NCBI RefSeq assembly: GCF_024380015.1
Contig: NZ_CP101509.1
Span: forward strand, 124,001 to 188,000
Reading direction: 5' to 3'
DNA: 64,000 bases
Source of the DNA: Photobacterium atrarenae
GTDB lineage: Bacteria > Pseudomonadota > Gammaproteobacteria > Enterobacterales > Vibrionaceae
The notes beneath the pieces were generated by a model. That model saw only the letters and a program-made list of their open reading frames with translations. It did no database searches and was not told the origin of the DNA. Made by a program: the position numbers and the translations under genes. Every line of letters begins with the position of its first letter. The stretch's first letter is position 1. Of this stretch, positions 5,025-64,000 are shown piece after piece.

Positions 5025-6913
5025 ATCGAGTAGGAGGAGGCCTCACGGCCTCCGTCCTCTCACACCACCGTACAAGCGTGGGTCGCATACGGCGGTTCCG
5101 AATATATTTTCAGTGACTCGTACCCATCTCGCAACGAGTACAGACCCATCTCCTTGAACCATTTCATTGGCATGGCCTGATTGAGCTGGGGCGATAAAGC
5201 CAAGTGCCACCACCCTTTATCTGACATCGCCAGCTTCCACGCATTGCGTTCGCTTACACCCTCTTGGCGTAACCATGTCGCTATACTGTATCTGCGCTTG
5301 CGCTGCTTGAGGCGATAGCACCGTAAGCGCCGCCTTATCCATTCATCCAAGCGCTGCATCGCGCTTTTCCGTATGGCAAGCTTGAAGTAGTGTTGCCAAC
5401 CTCTTAGGTATTGAGTGAGTTCGACTAGGACTGTCTTCAACTCTCGCCCTCGATTCCGCTTCGTTATTTGACGCACTCGCTTCTTCATCTGAGTTTGTGC
5501 TGTCTTCGAGATATGGATGCTTCCATCTCGTTGAAAGCGATGGCCTAGGTAAGTCCGCTCTGTCACTCTCGTTGCCGCACTTTTCTCACGGTTAACCCTG
5601 AGTTTCAGTTTCTGCTCCAAGAACTCCGTGATTGAGGCTTTTACTCGATTGGCGGCTTCCTCACTGTGCACGTAGATTTGGCAGTCGTCTGCATATCGGC
5701 AGAACTTATGCCCTCTTCGCTCAAGCTCTTTATCCAACTCATCTAATACGATATTTGATAGCAGCGGAGATAATGGTCCACCCTGTGGCGTCCCTCGTTG
5801 CCTCTGCTCAACTAACCCGTTTCGCATTATGCCTGCCTGTAGGTATGACCTGACCAGCTTCAGGACCCGTTTATCTGTGATGTCCTCCGATAGCCTGTGC
5901 ATCAGTTTATCGTGGTTCACAGTATCGAAGTATTTCGCCAGGTCTATGTCGACTACATAACCCCGCCCCTCCCTGATGTAGTGGCTTGCTGCCACCAATG
6001 CATGGTGGGTACTGCGGTTAGGCCTGAACCCATAACTGTTGCTTGAGAACTGAGGTTCGTAGATATCTGTCAGTACTAAGGTAATGGCCTGTTGGACTAC
6101 CCTATCAAGTACAGTTGGGATACCTAGCTGCCTCACTCCCCCGCTAGGTTTGGGAATTTCTACACCCAGAACGGGTTGGGGTTGGTAGCTCCCGTCCAGA
6201 AGGCTCTGGCGGAGCGCTTGCCCATTAGAAGACTGCCGAAGCATCGAGATAGTCGCTGTTATGTCGAGTTTATCAACCCCAGCACATCCCTTGTTCTTCT
6301 TCACTCTTCTCAGGGCTTGGTTCAGATTTGTTGAGGAGCAGATCCGCTCCATCAACTGAGTTGAGGTCACCAAGACTCGTCCTCCTGTCTACGCCGATCA
6401 TGCTTGTCATTCTTCGTGGCCATGAGCGTCACTTGCGGTGTTGCCCAGTAGTACGTAGAGATGTTGTTCATCTTGCTATGACCCCACATGATTGAGTGTC
6501 TAGTGACTGCTTCTTGATATATTCAGTTCCGGCCTTCCCTTGGGTTGTACTTCCCCAAGGTACTATGCCTTCTGCTGACTTCTTATTACCCGTCACACAA
6601 CATCACTGTTGTATTAGTCTCATCCGAGACAGGTCGTAAGATCTCCCGAGGTAAGACGTTGTTCTTTCCCTTGGCTGTGCCTGATTTACCCGTACACACT
6701 TCCCGTCGAGGCATTGGGCTGTTCTATATATTGCTAGGTTACCCAAGTTGTACTGGCCTACTATCAGGTTTCTGTTCGTCACACCCAAGTTTTGCCGTTT
6801 GCTTCCTTCAGATCCCACCTCACGGTGGGCACCCTTGCATAGGCTAACGGTTCTCGCTCGACTGAGTCCGTAGAGGACTTTCACCTCCTAGAACAACGCC
6901 ATGCTCGGCGCAC
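5025..6913 (-). mobile_element. group II intron, apparently complete
   Basis: About 1.89 kb on the minus strand. The 5' end is at 6913 and begins GTGCGCC. The structured 5' domains fill 6374-6913, and the maturase ORF sits in the domain IV position. A domain V hairpin (ACCGCCGTA pairing with TACGGTGGT) lies at about 5062-5096, overlapping the end of the ORF. A domain VI stem (GGAGGCC/GGCCTCC) is followed by CCTACTCGAT at the 3' end, near 5025. It directly follows a perfect hairpin plus TTTCTT, the insertion preference known for bacterial class C introns. Assignment to class C rests on this target and on general likeness, not on a phylogeny. The boundaries are read from consensus ends and could be off by one or two bases. 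Confidence 0.88.
5060..6373 (-). CDS. ltrA: group II intron reverse transcriptase/maturase
   Basis: 437 residues, intact. The order is an N-terminal RT-0 region, palm and fingers with GFRPNRSTHHA, DIDLAKYFDTVNHD, GTPQGGPLSPLLSN and the catalytic YADD, then a maturase X domain (LTQYLRGWQHYF) and a basic C-terminal region. No HNH endonuclease domain is visible. The protein splices and reverse-transcribes its own intron. Translation probably starts at TTG (6373) or the adjoining GTG, seven or ten bases behind AGGAGG. All catalytic motifs are intact, so the intron may still be mobile. Confidence 0.95.
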   Translation of the reverse strand: MVTSTQLMERICSSTNLNQALRRVKKNKGCAGVDKLDITATISMLRQSSNGQALRQSLLDGSYQPQPVLGVEIPKPSGGVRQLGIPTVLDRVVQQAITLVLTDIYEPQFSSNSYGFRPNRSTHHALVAASHYIREGRGYVVDIDLAKYFDTVNHDKLMHRLSEDITDKRVLKLVRSYLQAGIMRNGLVEQRQRGTPQGGPLSPLLSNIVLDELDKELERRGHKFCRYADDCQIYVHSEEAANRVKASITEFLEQKLKLRVNREKSAATRVTERTYLGHRFQRDGSIHISKTAQTQMKKRVRQITKRNRGRELKTVLVELTQYLRGWQHYFKLAIRKSAMQRLDEWIRRRLRCYRLKQRKRRYSIATWLRQEGVSERNAWKLAMSDKGWWHLALSPQLNQAMPMKWFKEMGLYSLRDGYESLKIYSEPPYATHACTVV

Positions 6914-27021: not shown

Positions 27022-27957
27022 ATGTTTGGTCAACTGCCGTCACTCAGGAGTATCAGAACCTTTGAATCTGCGGCACGGTTGGGCAGTTTTAAAGAAGCGG
27101 CCCTGGAGCTGCATGTTTCACCAACGGCCGTATCGCATCAGATCCGCACGTTAGAGGGGCAGCTCCAGGTCAAGCTGTTCGAACGTCATACCCGCGCCGT
27201 TGTGTTGACTGCCGATGGTGAAAAGCTTGCCCGGGTCGCCCATCAAATGCTGCGGGCGCTTTCGGACACCCTCAATGAAATCACCCATCGCGATGCGCCC
27301 CTGACCATTGGGACCACCACTGCATTTGCCGCAATGTGGCTGGTGCCTCATCTGAGCGAATTTCGCAGCGCGCACCCAAATATCGATATTCAGGTGAAAG
27401 CAGATGATCAACCGGTAGATATAACTACCCAGCACCAGGTCGATCTGGTCATCCGCTACGGGATCATGCCGGATGATGATCCCGACGCTTCACTGCTGTT
27501 TCGCGAATCGCTCCAGTGCTATGCAGCACCCGCGTACTGGCAAAGCCTCCTCCGGCCTGCAGCCTCCCCGGCCAGCATCTTGTGTACCCGGTGGAAAAAC
27601 CCGGCACTGCCCCCAGTTCATGATCAGCAAAGACTCAGAAACCTGTTCCCCAACCAACAGCCAATCACGGTTCGTGAATTTGAAGAAGAAAACCAGATCA
27701 TCCAGGCCGCCCTTGCCGGGCAGGGGATAGCGCTGGTCAGTCAGTTGCTGGTCGAAACCCCGCTGGCCAACGGTTGGCTGGTCTCTGCGCCGCAAGAGCC
27801 CGCTGTAAGCGCAGCCGCGCATCCTTTCTCCGGCCTGGATTATTATTTGAAAATACCTGATCGGAGCCGGACCAACCCGGCGGTTTGCCAATTCGCTGAC
27901 TGGCTGGGCCGAAAACTCAGTTCTTACCAATCACAGTCAGTCAGTGATCAGAAATAG
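27022..27957 (+). CDS. LysR-family regulator (GcvA-like), 3' end supplied by a repeat
   Basis: 311 residues. The N-terminal winged HTH (about 5-64, FESAARLGSFKEAALELHVSPTAVS) is GcvA-like. An effector-binding domain runs from about 92 to 295. It is divergent from azoR, the usual arrangement for a LysR regulator and its target. The last 11 codons and the stop lie inside a dispersed repeat starting near 27925, so the native C-terminus has been replaced. The replaced tail is outside the folded domain and function is probably kept. Confidence 0.88.
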   Translation: MFGQLPSLRSIRTFESAARLGSFKEAALELHVSPTAVSHQIRTLEGQLQVKLFERHTRAVVLTADGEKLARVAHQMLRALSDTLNEITHRDAPLTIGTTTAFAAMWLVPHLSEFRSAHPNIDIQVKADDQPVDITTQHQVDLVIRYGIMPDDDPDASLLFRESLQCYAAPAYWQSLLRPAASPASILCTRWKNPALPPVHDQQRLRNLFPNQQPITVREFEEENQIIQAALAGQGIALVSQLLVETPLANGWLVSAPQEPAVSAAAHPFSGLDYYLKIPDRSRTNPAVCQFADWLGRKLSSYQSQSVSDQK

Positions 27958-28086
27958 CGCAGGAAAAATGCTTGAGAACAAGGCGGGGTTTTTCGATAAG
28001 CAGTTATTCTACAATCAAAAATTCTAACGCAGTTATCGAGCGTTTTAACAAGCTAGGATGACCAGTTATTGACTACGATTGGAATA
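27925..28086. repeat. MITE-like repeat, copy 1
   Basis: About 162 bases, close to 90% identical by eye to 31603-31764. The ends are imperfect inverted repeats: TACCAATCACAGTCA at the left, and TTCCAATCGTAGTCAATAA read on the minus strand from the right. It carries no ORF of its own. It overlaps the 3' end of the LysR gene and stops eight bases before the end of the convergent LysR gene at 28094. It is probably a non-autonomous element moved by a transposase encoded elsewhere. Confidence 0.8.
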
Positions 28087-30246: not shown

Positions 30247-31395
30247 CTAGCTGCTTTTCCCGACCGGCCGTAGCGCAAGAATCGCAACACCGAACACAAC
30301 CGCAGCAAGCCCGGCCACCCACGGCGCGCCGAGTGAATACGCCAATCCCGCAGAGCCGGACCACAGAGCAACGCCAAGGTGCATCATGCTCATCCCCATG
30401 GCCATCAATGCGCCGCGATCCGTTTCAGAAAGCTGCGCGATATGATTCTGAAGCGCCGGGGAGCCGACCCCACCGGCCAACGACCACAGCGCCAATACCG
30501 GTGCAGCCGCAAGAAAAGTCAGTTCATCGCCGGTGAACACCCACAGGCTACAGCCTAAGCAAACCACCAAGGCGCCCCGCATCACGACCCGGCCACTGCC
30601 AGCACGTCGCATCACCCGCGACAACGCCAGGTTGCCCAGTACGCTGACCACGCCGAGAGATGCATACACCATCCCGATCAAGGCAACCTCAAGCCCCGCA
30701 CCATCGCGGAGTCGCTGGCCGATCAGGTTAAACACCCCAATCCCACCGCCAAGGCCAAAGCCCATCGCCATCAGCGCCCCCGCGGCTCCCGGAATTAGCA
30801 ACGGATTGAAGGATGAGCCGGACCCGCGGCTCACGAGACGCGTAGCGAAATGTGCTTTCGCGGTGAACACCAATGCCAGCGCTACCAACAAAGCCGCTGC
30901 GCCCAGTACGATGAACGCTACCCGCCACGAATACCACTCGGTCAACAGTGCCCCAATGCCCGGGCTTGCAATCATCCCGAGGGTCAGCCCTGCCTGTACC
31001 AGTACAATTTGCTTCATCGCGTGTTTGCCGGGCTGATCGCCGGCCAGCGCGAAGGCAATTGGTAACATCCCGGCGCTGGCCAAACCGGTCACAACACGGG
31101 TCACTAAAGCCCATTCAAAATCATCAACCAGTCCGGTGGCAATCGAGGCTAACCCGAAGAGGACACACGCCGGAACGATGAGTTTCATCCGCCCAATCCG
31201 GTCAGACAAACGACCGAAGTATGGCGCAGCCAGGGCAATTGCCAAGCTATATGCCGTAATAAAGAACGTGACCCGCTCCGGCTTCACCCCCAAATCGAGG
31301 CCAATCGGCGCCAGAATGGGGCCCAGCAGCAGCTCATCGGCCCCCACCAGAAACGCAATCAAAAAGAGCAATGTCGAAGTAAACATTGAAATCAT
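30247..31395 (-). CDS. MFS drug exporter (DHA1-like) behind an attenuator
   Basis: 382 residues, 12 membrane helices. Motif A is in the first cytoplasmic loop (GRLSDRIGRMKLI), and an antiporter-type motif C-like GMIASPGIGALL lies in helix 5. Such proteins expel drugs by proton antiport at the inner membrane; the substrate is not readable. The start at 31395 (ATG, then ATTTCAATG) follows the second leader terminator by about 25 bases. The frame continues upstream through that terminator, but those codons are not credible. The gene sits behind a leader peptide and two terminators, suggesting induction by a ribosome-targeting compound that the pump exports. Confidence 0.87.
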   Translation of the reverse strand: MISMFTSTLLFLIAFLVGADELLLGPILAPIGLDLGVKPERVTFFITAYSLAIALAAPYFGRLSDRIGRMKLIVPACVLFGLASIATGLVDDFEWALVTRVVTGLASAGMLPIAFALAGDQPGKHAMKQIVLVQAGLTLGMIASPGIGALLTEWYSWRVAFIVLGAAALLVALALVFTAKAHFATRLVSRGSGSSFNPLLIPGAAGALMAMGFGLGGGIGVFNLIGQRLRDGAGLEVALIGMVYASLGVVSVLGNLALSRVMRRAGSGRVVMRGALVVCLGCSLWVFTGDELTFLAAAPVLALWSLAGGVGSPALQNHIAQLSETDRGALMAMGMSMMHLGVALWSGSAGLAYSLGAPWVAGLAAVVFGVAILALRPVGKSS

Positions 31396-31419: not shown

Positions 31420-31450
31420 AAAAAGGGGCCGGTCGCAATAAACCGGCCCC
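31420..31450 (-). terminator. leader B terminator 2, just upstream of the MFS gene
   Basis: GGGGCCGGT and ACCGGCCCC (minus strand GGGGCCGGTTTATTGCGACC and onward) form a GC-rich stem followed by five T. It ends 25 bases before the MFS start, so the gene can only be expressed by passing it. Confidence 0.88.
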
Positions 31451-31494
31451 TTGATCTTGTGATTCAAGAAAATGATGTATCGAATTTTGGATAC

Positions 31495-31527
31495 AAAAAG
31501 GCCGGTGATGAAGCATCATCACCGGCC
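31495..31527 (-). terminator. leader B terminator 1
   Basis: GGCCGGTGATG and CATCACCGGCC form an 11-pair stem, followed by five T. Both arms are identical in leader A. Confidence 0.88.
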
Positions 31528-31602: not shown

Positions 31603-31764
31603 ATACCAATCAAAGTCAGTCAGTGATCAGAAATAGCGCAGGAAAAATGTTTGAGAACAAGGCAGAATTTTTAGATCAGTAGTGATTCTACAATCAAAAA
31701 TTCTAACGTCGTTATCGAGCATTTTAACAAGCTAGGATGGCCTCTTATTGACTGCGATTGGTAT
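31603..31764. repeat. MITE-like repeat, copy 2, inside leader B
   Basis: 162 bases, homologous to 27925-28086. The ends are ATACCAATCAAAGTCA and, inverted, ATACCAATCGCAGTCAATAA. It lies three bases behind the leader-peptide stop codon. Leader A has no insertion at the matching place, so this copy arrived after the two leaders diverged. Confidence 0.82.
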
Positions 31765-31767
31765 CAT

Positions 31768-31848
31768 TCAGGCTCCGGGCAACACTTCATCGTGGAACTG
31801 CACGGAGCGAAGCCTTCTGACGAAGCGCTTCAGGACAATATAAATCAT
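31768..31848 (-). CDS. leader peptide B (26 aa)
   Basis: ATG at 31848, TGA at 31768. It has exactly the same length as leader peptide A and 17 of 26 identical residues. Both share Tyr-Ile at 3-4, the core KxFVRRL at 7-13, Ser15, HDEVL at 19-23 and a Gly-Ala end. Residues 12-14 read Arg-Leu-Arg, the (+)x(+) pattern on which macrolide-bound ribosomes are known to stall. No strong Shine-Dalgarno is seen. The start lies about 27 bases from the predicted transcription start. Confidence 0.75.
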   Translation of the reverse strand: MIYIVLKRFVRRLRSVQFHDEVLPGA

Positions 31849-60287: not shown

Positions 60288-61835
60288 TTACGCAGAGACT
60301 GGACTCAGCTGCGAAATATCAAACACTTTATCCGGCCAGCCCCGCACAAATTCTGCTTCGTGCGAGACTAACACCACGGTACCGTCATAGCGCATCAAAG
60401 CTTCCTTCAGCGCCGATTTTATATCGACATCCAGGTGCGTGGTCGGCTCATCCAGGATCAGGAGATTGGTTTTCTCCGCAGCCAGACAGCACAGCTTCAC
60501 CTTGGTTTGCTCACCGCCACTCAGCGTGGCCAGGCTTTGTTGCGCTTTACGGCCGGAAACACCAAACCGGGCCAACTGCTGACGAGCCATTTTATCATTC
60601 AGGGTAGCATTGGCCGCCCGCACCACCTGAACTGGGGTACTATCCGGGTACGGCCAATACAAGTCCTGGGCAAAATAGCCCCACTTGATTCCTTTGGCGG
60701 TTTCCACCTGGCCTGAGAGCGCATCCACCTCACCGATCAGGGTTTTCAGCAAGGTCGATTTCCCCAATCCGTTAAAACCTACAATCGCGATTTTCTCACC
60801 GCGCTGGATATCCAGGTTCACCGGCGGCAGCAGCGGCCGCTGATAGCCAATCTTCAACCCGCGGGCGGCAATAACCCGCTGCGCGTTCAGCGGCGCGGCA
60901 GCGAAATGGAACTCCGGGGTGGGCTTTTCTTCCGGTTTCGCCAGCCGATCAATCTTGGCCAACTGCTTTTTGCGGCCATTGGCGATGGTTGCGTTGACGC
61001 CGGCACCATTTTTAGAAATATAAGCTTCGAGTTTTTCAATTTGGCGTTGCTGCGCTTCAAATTGTTTGACCAGATGCTGCTGCTCCTGCGCTTTCTGCGC
61101 CATCGCCTTGGCGTAGTGACCTTTGTATTTTTTGATCTGCTGATGGTCAATGTCACAGATGCAATTGGCAATGCGGTCAAGAAATGCGGTGTCATGCGAC
61201 ACCACCATAAATGCACCCGGATACTGCTCCAGGAACCCGCCCAGCCATTCGACATGATCGGTATCGAGATAGTTGGTCGGCTCGTCGAGCAGCAGCACAT
61301 CCGGTTGTTGCAACAGCAATTTTGCCAGCATCACCTTGTGGCGCTGGCCGCCACTGAGCGCGCCCATCCGGGTGTCGAGCCCGAAGCGGTCTATCCCCAA
61401 CCCGGTTGCAATCTGGATAACCCGGTGATCCAGGCTGTAGAACTGCTCTTTTTCCAGCAGCGACTGCAATGCCGCGGCCCGGTTCAACAGCGCCGTCGAT
61501 GTATCGGTTGCCATCTGTTCGTATAAGACCATCAGGGTCTGTTCCGCCTCGAACAGCTCGGCAAATGCAGAGGCAAGGTAATCCTGAATCGACAGCGTCT
61601 TGTTCACTGTCCCGTGCTGGTCCAGATAACCCATCACAAGATTCGGCTGCCAGTGGATCTCCCCCTGATCCGGCAAATATTCCCCTTGTAGCAATTTCAG
61701 CAGGGTACTTTTACCAACGCCGTTGTGACCGGTCACCCCGATATGCTCTCCGGCATGCAGGGCAAAATTGGCATCTTGATACAAGACTTTGTCGGCAACC
61801 TGATAAGTCAGGTTTTGAATCATTAATAAGCTCAT
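60288..61835 (-). CDS. ABC-F ribosome-associated ATPase, probable antibiotic resistance factor
   Basis: 515 residues. Two ABC domains lack membrane parts: Walker A GHNGVGKST and GFNGLGKST, signatures LSGGQRHKVMLAKLLL and LSGGEQTKVKLCCLA, and Walker B LLLDEPTNYLD and LILDEPTTHLD. Between them a charged linker (about 235-320) would reach the ribosomal E and P sites. ABC-F proteins either tune translation or dislodge drugs such as macrolides, lincosamides and pleuromutilins. The antibiotic-attenuator-like leader points to resistance. The start at 61835 (ATGAGC) is preferred; the ATG at 61823 is possible. An upstream frame extension overlaps terminator 2 and is rejected. Confidence 0.88.
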   Translation of the reverse strand: MSLLMIQNLTYQVADKVLYQDANFALHAGEHIGVTGHNGVGKSTLLKLLQGEYLPDQGEIHWQPNLVMGYLDQHGTVNKTLSIQDYLASAFAELFEAEQTLMVLYEQMATDTSTALLNRAAALQSLLEKEQFYSLDHRVIQIATGLGIDRFGLDTRMGALSGGQRHKVMLAKLLLQQPDVLLLDEPTNYLDTDHVEWLGGFLEQYPGAFMVVSHDTAFLDRIANCICDIDHQQIKKYKGHYAKAMAQKAQEQQHLVKQFEAQQRQIEKLEAYISKNGAGVNATIANGRKKQLAKIDRLAKPEEKPTPEFHFAAAPLNAQRVIAARGLKIGYQRPLLPPVNLDIQRGEKIAIVGFNGLGKSTLLKTLIGEVDALSGQVETAKGIKWGYFAQDLYWPYPDSTPVQVVRAANATLNDKMARQQLARFGVSGRKAQQSLATLSGGEQTKVKLCCLAAEKTNLLILDEPTTHLDVDIKSALKEALMRYDGTVVLVSHEAEFVRGWPDKVFDISQLSPVSA

Positions 61836-61848
61836 GTTTTTAAACCAT

Positions 61849-61880
61849 AAAAAAGGGGTCGGTAGCAATGCACCGACCCC
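61849..61880 (-). terminator. leader A terminator 2, directly before the ABC-F gene
   Basis: GGGGTCGGT and ACCGACCCC form a nine-pair stem followed by six T. The tract ends 14 bases before the ABC-F start codon. Confidence 0.9.
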
Positions 61881-61925
61881 TGAATAACGTTCACTGTTAT
61901 CTTGTTTCTGATAAATTTCAGATAC

Positions 61926-61956
61926 AAAAAAGGCCGGTGATGAAGCATCACCGGCC
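61926..61956 (-). terminator. leader A terminator 1
   Basis: GGCCGGTGATG and CATCACCGGCC form a perfect 11-pair stem with a three-base loop, followed by six T. Confidence 0.92.
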
Positions 61957-62036
61957 GCCTTCTCTACCTGTACACATCAGATGCAGGCCGTCCTGCGCTT
62001 TCGCGCATCACTGCAACTGACGAAGATTCAGGTTAT

Positions 62037-62117
62037 TTAAGCTCCGAGCAACACTTCATCGTGTTTGTGCGCGGAGCAAAGCCTTCTGACGAAGTTCTTG
62101 AATAAGATGTACAACAT
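62037..62117 (-). CDS. leader peptide A (26 aa)
   Basis: ATG at 62117, TAA at 62037. It aligns without gaps to leader peptide B (17 of 26 identical). The core KNFVRRLCS differs from B (KRFVRRLRS) at two places, and the end DEVLLGA against DEVLPGA at one. Synonymous changes (Tyr TAC/TAT, Ile ATC/ATT) suggest the peptide itself is selected. It starts about 25 bases from the predicted transcription start and has no strong Shine-Dalgarno. Confidence 0.75.
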   Translation of the reverse strand: MLYILFKNFVRRLCSAHKHDEVLLGA

Positions 62118-62148
62118 GATAGAGAGTGTTTAAAAACAATTTGGTGCG

Positions 62149-62177
62149 AATCTAATCAAATCTTGCCTGCCTGTCAA
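62149..62177 (-). promoter_or_regulatory. sigma70 promoter of leader A
   Basis: TTGACA (62177-62172), 17-base spacer, TAGATT (62154-62149): near-consensus. The -35 box and most of the spacer lie in the last codons of the upstream histidine kinase gene. Confidence 0.75.
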
Positions 62178-63633
62178 TGCAGACAGAGTCATTTTCACTC
62201 GCTGCCGAACTAAATGTCACAGTAAATGTACTGCCCTGGCCCGGCACAGAGGCCAGCGTCATTGTCCCACCAAGATTGCGCACCATCGCCGCCGCCAGAG
62301 ACAGCCCCAGCCCGTAACCTTCCGTATTGCTGCGACTTTCATCGACACGATACAAACGTTTGAAGACCAACGCCTGATGCTTTGGGGCAATACCAATGCC
62401 AGTATCGGCCACTTGAAGGGCGACCCCGCCCTGTGCCAGCGCTGCCGAAGAGAGCGACACCCGGCCGCCGGATTCAGTAAACTTCAGCGCGTTATCAACC
62501 AGATTAACCAGAATTTGTGTCAATTTGTCTGCGTCTGAGTCCATCATCAGACTCGGGGCCGGCTCACACTGGATCTCAATCCCTTTGAGCTCGGCAATGT
62601 CCTCATACCAACTCGCCACGCGTCGCAAAATATCATTCACGTTCACCGGAGTACGCTGCACCGTTCGCTTGCCGGTTTGCTCATCATTGAGCTTCATCAA
62701 CGCAGTCAGCAGATTACCCGCCTGCGCCGCGTATTCGGAGCAGTCGGCCAGCGCACTGGCCTGCAAGGCCGATTTTTCTTTCCCTTGCAGCTGGCTTAGC
62801 AAGGCATTTTCCGTCGACAACTGAATTCGTGACAGTGGCGTTCGAATATCATGGGCAATCGCATCCAGGGTCCGATCCATCGTGGTCACGACGCCATGCA
62901 ACCGCGAAACGGCCTCACGCACGCTGTGATTAATCGCGGCCAGTCCCTGCGGTACTTCCGCTTCACCGGCATGCCGGGCAAAAGCATCCAGCGTGCCCCG
63001 ACTCAAATCATCCAGGTGATGACCCAGCACCACGAGCGGCTGCAAGGTGTTATGAATCAATCGCCAGATAAACACCGAAGTGAAACACGCCAATAGAACC
63101 AAGGCTAGGAAGGTCATCAGCCACTGTTTCATCGCCACCGGATAACGGGCCTGGTTATCGAGCACCAGCCAAAAGGCGTGCTCCGTCCCCTGCATCCTGA
63201 GCGTCATGTAGGGGCTGGCGAGAAACGCGCTGATCCAGGAATGGTCGCCGACCTGATAGGCTGAAAAGTCGAGATCCGCAGGAATTTGCCGCTCCCCGGC
63301 CAGAAACCGGACTTGGGCTTTCTCACCGGGCATCGCTTCTGCCGTTGTATTTGGCATAACAAACGCTGCGATATGGTTGTCCACCAGTCGTTGCGGATTG
63401 GCTCGGATCACATGAACCAGCTTGTCATCGGACTCAAACTTGAGGATCCGCTGATACTCCACCGACAAGGAGGTCATGATTTTGGTCTCGACCCGATACA
63501 GGTCGTAAAAAAAAATGCCGCCAACCACGGCTTCAATCATCAGCAGCGCCAACAGCAAAATGGCCATAAACTTGCGAAACAGCTGGCGCTGAGTCAGGGC
63601 CAGGGCAACTTCAACCTTCTGCTTTGAGGACAT
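62152..63633 (-). CDS. sensor histidine kinase
   Basis: 493 residues. Helix 1 is at about 19-42, followed by a periplasmic domain (about 43-168) and helix 2 (about 170-192). A HAMP region, an H-box (IAHDIRTPLSRIQLS), N box NLVDNALKFTESG, G1 VADTGIGI and G2 GYGLGLSLAAAMV follow. It overlaps the upstream response-regulator gene by 23 bases, so they are a cognate pair. Its signal is not readable. Its 3' end contains the promoter of the ABC-F leader. Confidence 0.93.
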   Translation of the reverse strand: MSSKQKVEVALALTQRQLFRKFMAILLLALLMIEAVVGGIFFYDLYRVETKIMTSLSVEYQRILKFESDDKLVHVIRANPQRLVDNHIAAFVMPNTTAEAMPGEKAQVRFLAGERQIPADLDFSAYQVGDHSWISAFLASPYMTLRMQGTEHAFWLVLDNQARYPVAMKQWLMTFLALVLLACFTSVFIWRLIHNTLQPLVVLGHHLDDLSRGTLDAFARHAGEAEVPQGLAAINHSVREAVSRLHGVVTTMDRTLDAIAHDIRTPLSRIQLSTENALLSQLQGKEKSALQASALADCSEYAAQAGNLLTALMKLNDEQTGKRTVQRTPVNVNDILRRVASWYEDIAELKGIEIQCEPAPSLMMDSDADKLTQILVNLVDNALKFTESGGRVSLSSAALAQGGVALQVADTGIGIAPKHQALVFKRLYRVDESRSNTEGYGLGLSLAAAMVRNLGGTMTLASVPGQGSTFTVTFSSAASENDSVCIDRQARFD

Positions 63634-64000
63634 AGCCGACGCCTCGGATAGTGTGGATTAAGGGTAAGTCAAAGTGCTTATCCACTTTGCCGCGTAAGCG
63701 GCAGACCAGTACATCAACCACATTGGTCTGCGGATCGAACTGATAGCCCCACACCTGCTCCAGGATTGCCGTTTTCGACAGCACTTTTTCCGGGTGCTGC
63801 AACAACAACTGCACCAACATAAACTCCCGCTGATTGAGTGGGATCGGTTGTCCGCCGCGATGCAATGTATGTTTGAGTAAATCCAGGGTAAGATCATGAT
63901 AACTCAGCTGATGCGCGGGTGCGGCCTGAGACTGGCTTCTGCGGGTTAGGATCTGGCAGCGGGCCAGCAACTCGGAAAAGGCAAACGGCTTGACCAGATA
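63611..64000 (-). CDS. OmpR/PhoB-type response regulator, C-terminal part (cut by window end)
   Basis: The frame is open to the window edge. YLVKPFAFSELLARC at the edge is the end of a receiver domain with its conserved Lys-Pro. A winged-helix DNA-binding domain follows, with LDLLKHTLHRGGQPIPLNQREFMLVQLLLQHPEKVLSKTAILEQVWGY and the end IHTIRGVGYVLK. It is the partner of the overlapping kinase. The phospho-acceptor Asp lies outside the window. Confidence 0.93.
   Translation of the reverse strand, partial: YLVKPFAFSELLARCQILTRRSQSQAAPAHQLSYHDLTLDLLKHTLHRGGQPIPLNQREFMLVQLLLQHPEKVLSKTAILEQVWGYQFDPQTNVVDVLVCRLRGKVDKHFDLPLIHTIRGVGYVLKAEG

Follow-up and report, generated by a model that had tools for sequence, protein, structure and literature searches.

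The window, which is the whole 64,000-nucleotide stretch of Photobacterium atrarenae DNA analysed here, contains a gene for an ABC-F protein on the minus strand (60288–61835). The protein matches the ribosomal protection-like ABC-F model NF000355 with 385.2 bits against a cut-off of 380, and it falls far short of the NCBIfam cut-offs for Uup, EttA, and the remaining models of housekeeping ABC-F proteins. Its PADLOC matches look like generic ATPase matches and were disregarded. A Shine-Dalgarno sequence is not evident by eye before the start codon of the gene (ATG at 61835). Two genes lie upstream of the leader of this gene (62152–64000), one for a histidine kinase and one, represented by its end, for a response regulator.

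The leader, also on the minus strand, had been described in an initial annotation as a promoter, a 26-codon open reading frame (ORF), a capped P1 stem, two terminators, and a 14-base gap before the ABC-F gene, and all of these parts were recovered in place. The promoter TTGACA-17-TAGATT (62149–62177, minus strand) agrees with the consensus at 10 of 12 positions, with TTGACA at 62177–62172 and TAGATT at 62154–62149, and its -35 end lies within the 3′ end of the histidine kinase ORF. The leader ORF (62037–62117, minus strand) encodes the 26 residues MLYILFKNFVRRLCSAHKHDEVLLGA, and codons 11–15 (R R L C S) form its predicted pause window. Within the ORF, codons 14–17 contain element A (62068–62077), the 5′ arm of a hairpin known as uup RNA, which is matched by the Rfam model RF03060 at 62086–62041. 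The stem of this hairpin is GCTCCG/CGGAGC and its loop is GATGAAG (62060–62054). The loop and the 3′ arm together make up element B (62041–62060), the proposed antiterminator strand, which is complementary to terminator 1. Box C, CTTCGTCAG (62017–62025), complements the uup loop and at the same time forms the 5′ strand of P1, a stem-loop with a TGCGC-GAAA-GCGCA cap (61975–62022), the 3′ strand of which, element D, ends in CTGATG (61980–61975). The terminator scan placed the stem of terminator 1, with CTTCATC inside it, at 61932–61956. The stem of terminator 2 (61854–61881) has a 5′ arm that complements terminator 1 in its 3′ arm and U-run, and the U-run of terminator 2 itself ends at 61849, 14 nt 5′ of the ABC-F start codon. 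The repeated complementary blocks listed in the initial annotation are present as described: CTTCGTC in leader codons 8–10 and again at 62025–62019, GATGAAG, CTGATG, and CTTCATC within terminator 1. The leader has a folding energy of −116.6 kcal/mol (z −8.25), which none of 100 shuffled sequences equalled. Four terminator-like sites were observed on both strands of positions 61700–62400, where 0.7 are expected.

A second, paralogous leader (31848–31423, minus strand) precedes the gene of an MFS transporter (30247–31395, minus strand; Pfam PF07690), the best NCBIfam match of which is Bcr/CflA efflux, under the cut-off. This leader has an ORF for the related 26-residue peptide MIYIVLKRFVRRLRSVQFHDEVLPGA (31768–31848), a uup RNA at 31817–31772, and tandem terminators (31423–31527) with stems at 31527–31500 and 31452–31423. 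A 162-bp insert (31603–31764) separates its uup hairpin from box C and ends in 21-nt terminal inverted repeats that are 81% complementary. The same end motifs occur 162 bp apart at 27924–28085, which is probably a second copy of this MITE-like element. Group II intron RNA domains RF02001 and RF01998 lie at 6531–6829 on the minus strand.

Distribution of uup RNA leaders

The hairpin of the ABC-F leader scores 55.5 bits against RF03060, and that of the MFS leader 44.5 bits; the gathering score is 36.8, and both leaders are members of the family by score. The core hairpin of the element, which the initial annotation had called undescribed-looking, is therefore a catalogued RNA. The RF03060 model, classified as cis-regulatory, consists of 48 positions forming a single hairpin and stops where the hairpin stops; it does not cover the leader ORF, box C, P1, the terminators, or the pairings of these parts. 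According to a review from 2024 that deals with riboswitches in C. difficile, uup RNAs occur in Bacillota and Gammaproteobacteria, often with ATPases of biochemically unknown function, and the section of the review that deals with the motif notes the absence of further evidence for uup being a riboswitch and gives no mechanism (PMC11477304). Searches of the open-access literature found no mechanism of uup RNA, RF03060, or CD3359, and a search combining ABC-F, leader peptide, attenuation, and Vibrio gave one unrelated review only. The statement that no such element had been described in Vibrionaceae thus has to be narrowed for the hairpin, which belongs to a family reported from Bacillota and Gammaproteobacteria, and stands, within the open-access literature, for a paper on its mechanism.

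Matches to RF03060 with E ≤ 0.001 were found in 26 of the 247 genomes of the window's family and in 19 of 37 genomes in the genus of one Aeromonas locus. For one clostridial locus, 15 of the 391 genomes of its class had a match, which are 15 of the 71 genomes of one family, as had 3 of 348 genomes in its phylum; some of the counts at this E-value include matches below the gathering score. In the window's class, uup was present in 2 of 369 genomes, one being the window's own and the other having a match of 29.9 bits, below the cut-off. We gathered 76 uup loci from Gammaproteobacteria and Bacillota, leaving out the 29.9-bit locus (L146), and parsed 74 of them (all except L156 and L193). The 25 representatives chosen for statistical comparison have fewer than 45% of their 6-mers in common; they share ancestry, and the tests are not phylogeny-corrected. 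A loose pattern scan of genome contigs returned at least 118 loci, with uup RNA in 4 of the 18 checked by Rfam, and a stricter pattern had no matches in viral contigs.

The gene located 3′ of the uup RNA encodes an ABC-F protein in 49 of the 74 loci, a SAM methyltransferase in 11, a MATE protein in 8, an MFS transporter in 2, and a GNAT and an MBL-fold protein in 1 each; no gene was seen in the remaining 2. The genes were assigned to these families by inspection and by BLAST against the two genes of the window, with profile checks of five non-ABC-F representatives. The first uup copy of the window lies upstream of an ABC-F gene, and the second precedes the MFS gene. The downstream genes presumably confer resistance.

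Terminators and their pairing partners

Terminators were recognised as hairpins of −9 kcal/mol or better that are followed by a U-run. Terminator 1 was detected by this script in 70 of the 74 loci (the exceptions are L005, L159, L161, and L173), and a second hairpin follows it in 68 of the 70. Sixty-five of the second hairpins end 5′ of the gene start, one lies within the gene (L163), and two have no gene call; shuffling of the intervening stretch generated a terminator in 35 of 500 controls. In gammaproteobacterial ABC-F loci, the distance from the end of the terminator 2 stem to the ATG is 14–20 nt, mostly 17–19 nt. The intragenic terminator 2 of L163 was kept in the pairing and folding tests of the 25 representatives, and the last of the three hairpins of L192 was counted as terminator 2. 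The leaders thus contain an intrinsic terminator between the leader ORF and the gene, as attenuators do.

In the window leader, element B (62060–62048) and terminator 1 (61951–61939, in its loop and 3′ arm) can form 13 pairs, several of them G-U. Across the 25 representatives, the duplex of B with terminator 1 had a mean z of −2.57 and p<0.05 in 20; a repeat with 300 shuffles gave −2.60 and 19. The duplexes of B with terminator 2 (mean z +0.95) and with the stretch after box C (mean z +0.31) reached p<0.05 in none of the 25. Cognate partners of B and terminator 1 were superior to partners permuted within phyla, as only 1 of 2000 permutations was as good. Of the 25 representatives, 10 pair all 12 core positions and 15 pair at least 10 of the 12; the rest form interrupted helices. 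Fourteen doubly changed cells were counted in this pairing, compared to a permuted mean of 8.3, and none of 300 permutations reached 14. The fraction paired and the number of double-change columns were matched by 29 and 59 of 300 permutations, respectively, and the pair types, by 21 of 300, were not clearly above permutation, so that covariation between B and terminator 1 appears modest. The duplex of B with box C had a mean z of −2.49 and p<0.05 in 15 of the 25, with p 0.060 in the window leader. Of the base-pair covariation that the initial annotation proposed to look for, a modest signal is present in the doubly changed cells of B and terminator 1, and none was found among the 25 representatives for B and box C.

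The complementarity of B and terminator 1 lends weight to the earlier idea that the release of GATGAAG is the key event, and base pairing with terminator 1 would explain why the uup loop is conserved. Judged by sequence only, the pairing of B is an antiterminator alternative that excludes terminator 1; at equilibrium, the terminators are favoured. The companion idea, that GATGAAG is held by CTTCGTC of codons 8–10, was abandoned because this block varies among homologues (for example TTTTGTC and CTTCGTA). Element D (CTGATG) as an antiterminator against terminator 1 was rejected as short and variable by eye, and an antiterminator that would work processively on the polymerase was set aside once the complementarity of B and terminator 1 emerged. 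When the segment from box C to terminator 1 was folded, every one of the 25 representatives gave a P1-type fold with at least 4 of the 9 bases of box C paired, a raw count from the native sequences. Box C may act as a pseudoknot lock on the uup loop in the OFF state and be absorbed by P1 in the ON state.

The two terminators are themselves complementary, the 5′ arm of the second matching the 3′ arm plus U-run of the first (mean z −2.33, p<0.05 in 16 of 25), and 2 of 2000 permutations within phyla and none of 1000 unstratified ones were as good. Without the U-run, the arms had a mean z of −0.80 against shuffles and were equalled by 4 of 2000 permutations. The arm pairings that do not belong to this relay had mean z values of −0.57 (3′ with 3′, p<0.05 in 6 of 25) and −0.65 (5′ with 5′, 3 of 25), and the mirror pairing of the 5′ arm with the 3′ arm had −0.88 (9 of 25, 122 of 2000 permutations). 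With the pairing of B and terminator 1 forced, the relay pairing appeared during the emergence of terminator 2 and was lost in most loci at its completion. A relay from terminator 1 to terminator 2 is a supported proposal, to which the sequence comparison gives slightly better than even odds, and it is weaker than the step that joins B to terminator 1. We know of no described case of antitermination by a relay from one terminator to another, and a search of the open-access literature brought up none.

The same attenuator could instead lack a relay and use terminator 2 as an unregulated back-up that lowers leakage, with some polymerases passing it by other means. Two observations agree with such a back-up, namely the mean z of the relay arms alone and the re-formation of terminator 2 at full length in most representatives with B and terminator 1 forced together. 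We nevertheless consider it rather unlikely, because the complementarity that includes the U-run exceeds both the shuffles and the within-phylum permutations, and because a second terminator that cannot be broken would silence the gene. Control of both terminators by one switch, which was part of the initial annotation, is supported by the comparison, with the second hairpin in 68 of 70 loci and the relay complementarity.

Leader ORF and ribosome position

The ratio pN/pS over codons 2–13 is 0.14 in a gammaproteobacterial group (33 loci, 21 unique sequences) and 0.17 in another group (11 loci, 9 unique sequences), and shifted frames of the same two groups have ratios of 1.67–2.20; a third group, with 2 unique sequences, is too small to be informative. 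By this comparison, the leader ORF is under protein-level selection within lineages. An ATG is located exactly 14 codons 5′ of one codon of the uup 5′ arm in 62 of the 74 loci, the reference codon being TCC or TCT, or TTC in three Vibrionaceae loci. The spacing is 12 codons in five loci, 15 in two, and 11 in one; that of L161 was read as 8 codons, and an ATG at 14 is present there too. The ratios and the spacing support the claim that the leader peptide is translated. Three loci have no in-frame ATG. One of them, L173, is degenerate, and in the two others, L164 and L192, an ORF in a different frame is open across the hairpin, which makes the position of the ribosome look more conserved than the peptide. 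The initial annotation had held that homologues with a frameshifted leader ORF and retained terminators would speak against its model; L164 and L192 are mild instances of this, as their ORF stays open across the hairpin. A promoter-like site (at least 9 of 12) lies 5′ of the leader ORF in 21 of the 25 representatives, compared to 2.5 expected from shuffles, in a scan that used a wrong-frame ORF start for L164 and L192.

Conservation of the peptide was among the checks proposed initially; the peptide is constrained within lineages, differs between them, and is unconserved in its C-terminal half. Gammaproteobacterial ABC-F and MFS genes are preceded by M-x-Y-I-L-F-K-N-F-V-R-R-L. The peptide LYASDQRVTRV, a distinct type, accompanies no genes other than those of SAM methyltransferases, in 11 of 11 loci (L149, L172, L174–L181, and L027) from Aeromonas and one Vibrionaceae genome. 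Leader peptides of most MATE genes are of the HPKNKL or RLCI type, and those of clostridial ABC-F genes often contain (V/T)RKL or VTKL. The 3′ end of the ORF varies: HDEVLLGA is not kept, and many gammaproteobacterial homologues stop after SAH.

When the bases through element A were masked, B paired with the emerging terminator 1 in 25 of 25 representatives, with 8–14 pairs at best; when left unmasked, 12 of the 25 also formed at least 8 such pairs at one or another of the shorter lengths. As long as 3 nt of terminator 1 were hidden, at least 8 pairs were formed by 18 of the 25 leaders when masked and by 2 of the 25 when unmasked. A scan with a 30-nt ribosome footprint turned only 14 of the 25 representatives ON, and 1 of 25 was ON without a ribosome; an earlier scan of 11 loci had turned 9 ON at some position, with L003 and L009 never switching. 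In the footprint model, the window leader is ON only with the P-site at codons 11–15. The position of the ribosome as the likely signal, as proposed initially, is supported by the comparison. The complete terminator 1 outcompetes the forced pairing of B by a mean of 5.3 kcal/mol, and by 1.8 kcal/mol in the window. Since terminator 1 wins at full length, the switch would have to be kinetic.

Codons 11–12 are AGA/AGG (CGA is possible at 12) in all 21 unique sequences of gammaproteobacterial ABC-F and MFS leaders. AGA and AGG make up 13% of the Arg codons in 32 long ORFs of the window, some of which are perhaps spurious, and none of the 19 in the ABC-F gene. The leader could accordingly sense, in place of a drug, arginine or a general slowdown of translation, with the tandem rare Arg codons pausing the ribosome at low levels of charged tRNA-Arg, and such pausing is reported for the Salmonella speF leader. 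We regard this as improbable, because other lineages have Lys or lack tandem Arg at codons 11–12, and because the downstream genes are of the resistance type and not arginine or polyamine genes. It is still less probable that uup RNA is a ligand-binding riboswitch or a protein-binding antiterminator site and that the ORF is incidental. The loop nucleotides are strongly conserved and the review lists uup, where it treats the motif, among riboswitch-like motifs (PMC11477304), as this reading would have it; against it stand the protein-level selection on the ORF, its fixed spacing, the base pairing that accounts for the loop conservation, and a structure that is a single hairpin. Ordinary tandem terminators in unregulated intergenic sequence can practically be dismissed, even though intrinsic terminators are common and the upstream gene ends about 200 nt 5′ of terminator 1, since the arrangement recurs in two phyla with its own promoter and a narrow set of gene families.

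Proposed switch and known attenuators

Selection on the ORF, its fixed spacing, the promoter, the two terminators, and both complementarities, all derived from comparison of the leaders, point to a transcription attenuator. We propose that it is gated by the ribosome, built on the uup RNA, equipped with a relay, and triggered by a drug, and we assign this whole account a probability of roughly 0.6. An attenuator that uses the pairing of B with terminator 1 is, from the compared leaders, highly probable, and a drug is quite likely to be the trigger. In the mechanism that we infer, including the stalling, the kinetics, the read-through, the order of events, and the roles of box C and P1, the leader ORF would be freely translated in the OFF state, so that the uup hairpin of A and B forms, its loop is probably bound by box C, and the two terminators form. 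In the ON state, a ribosome that has paused with the P-site around codons 11–15, which in the window are the tandem Arg codons AGA-AGG followed by L, C, and S, would cover element A. As the loop and 3′ arm of terminator 1 leave the polymerase, the freed B would pair with them, and P1 would lie nested between the two strands. The lower 3′ arm and U-run released from terminator 1 may then capture terminator 2 by its 5′ arm, and a single switch would thereby defeat both terminators, one after the other. The switch is probably triggered by a drug under which ribosomes stall on the leader peptide, and the product, which may be an ABC-F protein, a pump, a transferase, or a hydrolase, would counter the drug that caused the stalling. 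Terminator 2, the last hairpin, is close to the ATG and may also influence the start of translation. The broader view, in which uup is a modular sensor of stalled ribosomes that is used across phyla with exchangeable, lineage-specific sensor peptides, at least six resistance-type gene families, and a two-terminator relay, is one that we favour by a hair.

In trp-type attenuation, the position of the ribosome selects one of two outcomes, hairpin 1:2 together with the terminator or an antiterminator that strand 2 forms. The proposed attenuator is similar in that the ribosome position on the leader ORF would decide and that strand 2, here B, would be the antiterminator. It differs in that B matches the terminator mostly in its loop and 3′ arm, that a second terminator is present, which may be opened by a relay, and that the ORF has no run of codons for a single amino acid. 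Both window leaders are members of the uup RNA motif, which precedes ABC-F type genes in Bacillota and Gammaproteobacteria.

The leader of C. difficile cplR, which is induced by ribosome-targeting drugs, likewise combines an ABC-F gene, a regulatory uORF, and an intrinsic terminator; in the passages compared, it differs in that the uORF is MRI and that one terminator is accompanied by an anti-Shine-Dalgarno element (PMC10201436). The combination of an MRI uORF and an anti-Shine-Dalgarno element was not seen in the window, where the peptides start with MLY and MIY, as judged by reading. The cplR gene is CDIF630_02847 and is distinct from CD3359, which bears the uup RNA according to the relevant part of the review (PMC11477304). 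Like the window leader, the msrD leader has a short peptide ORF before an ABC-F gene; its transcription attenuation, the mode proposed here, depends on a drug-induced stall on the peptide MYLIFM and works in E. coli. In the passages compared, the stalled ribosome itself obstructs one terminator, and no antiterminator is named (PMC10314930). The Salmonella speF leader is reported to have regulatory elements with alternative mRNA conformations as well, depends on arginine, and differs in its target, polyamine synthesis. The element of the window is a member of RF03060 that would function by ribosome-mediated transcription attenuation, with an output resembling that of the drug-inducible cplR and msrD leaders and an anatomy unlike theirs in the passages compared.

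The proposed attenuator would give the catalogued uup motif a concrete function, with pairing to the terminator as the explanation of the conserved loop. It predicts that little-studied genes in Vibrionaceae, Aeromonas, and Clostridia are switched on under ribosome inhibition, and by uup annotation the prediction extends to CD3359 of C. difficile. The relay, if true, would be a simple, low-leakage way of controlling two terminators by one switch. Plasmids of Vibrio nigripulchritudo and Salinivibrio costicola (L196 and L197) also carry leader-like DNA immediately 5′ of ABC-F genes, and the Vibrio nigripulchritudo plasmid is typed as conjugative.
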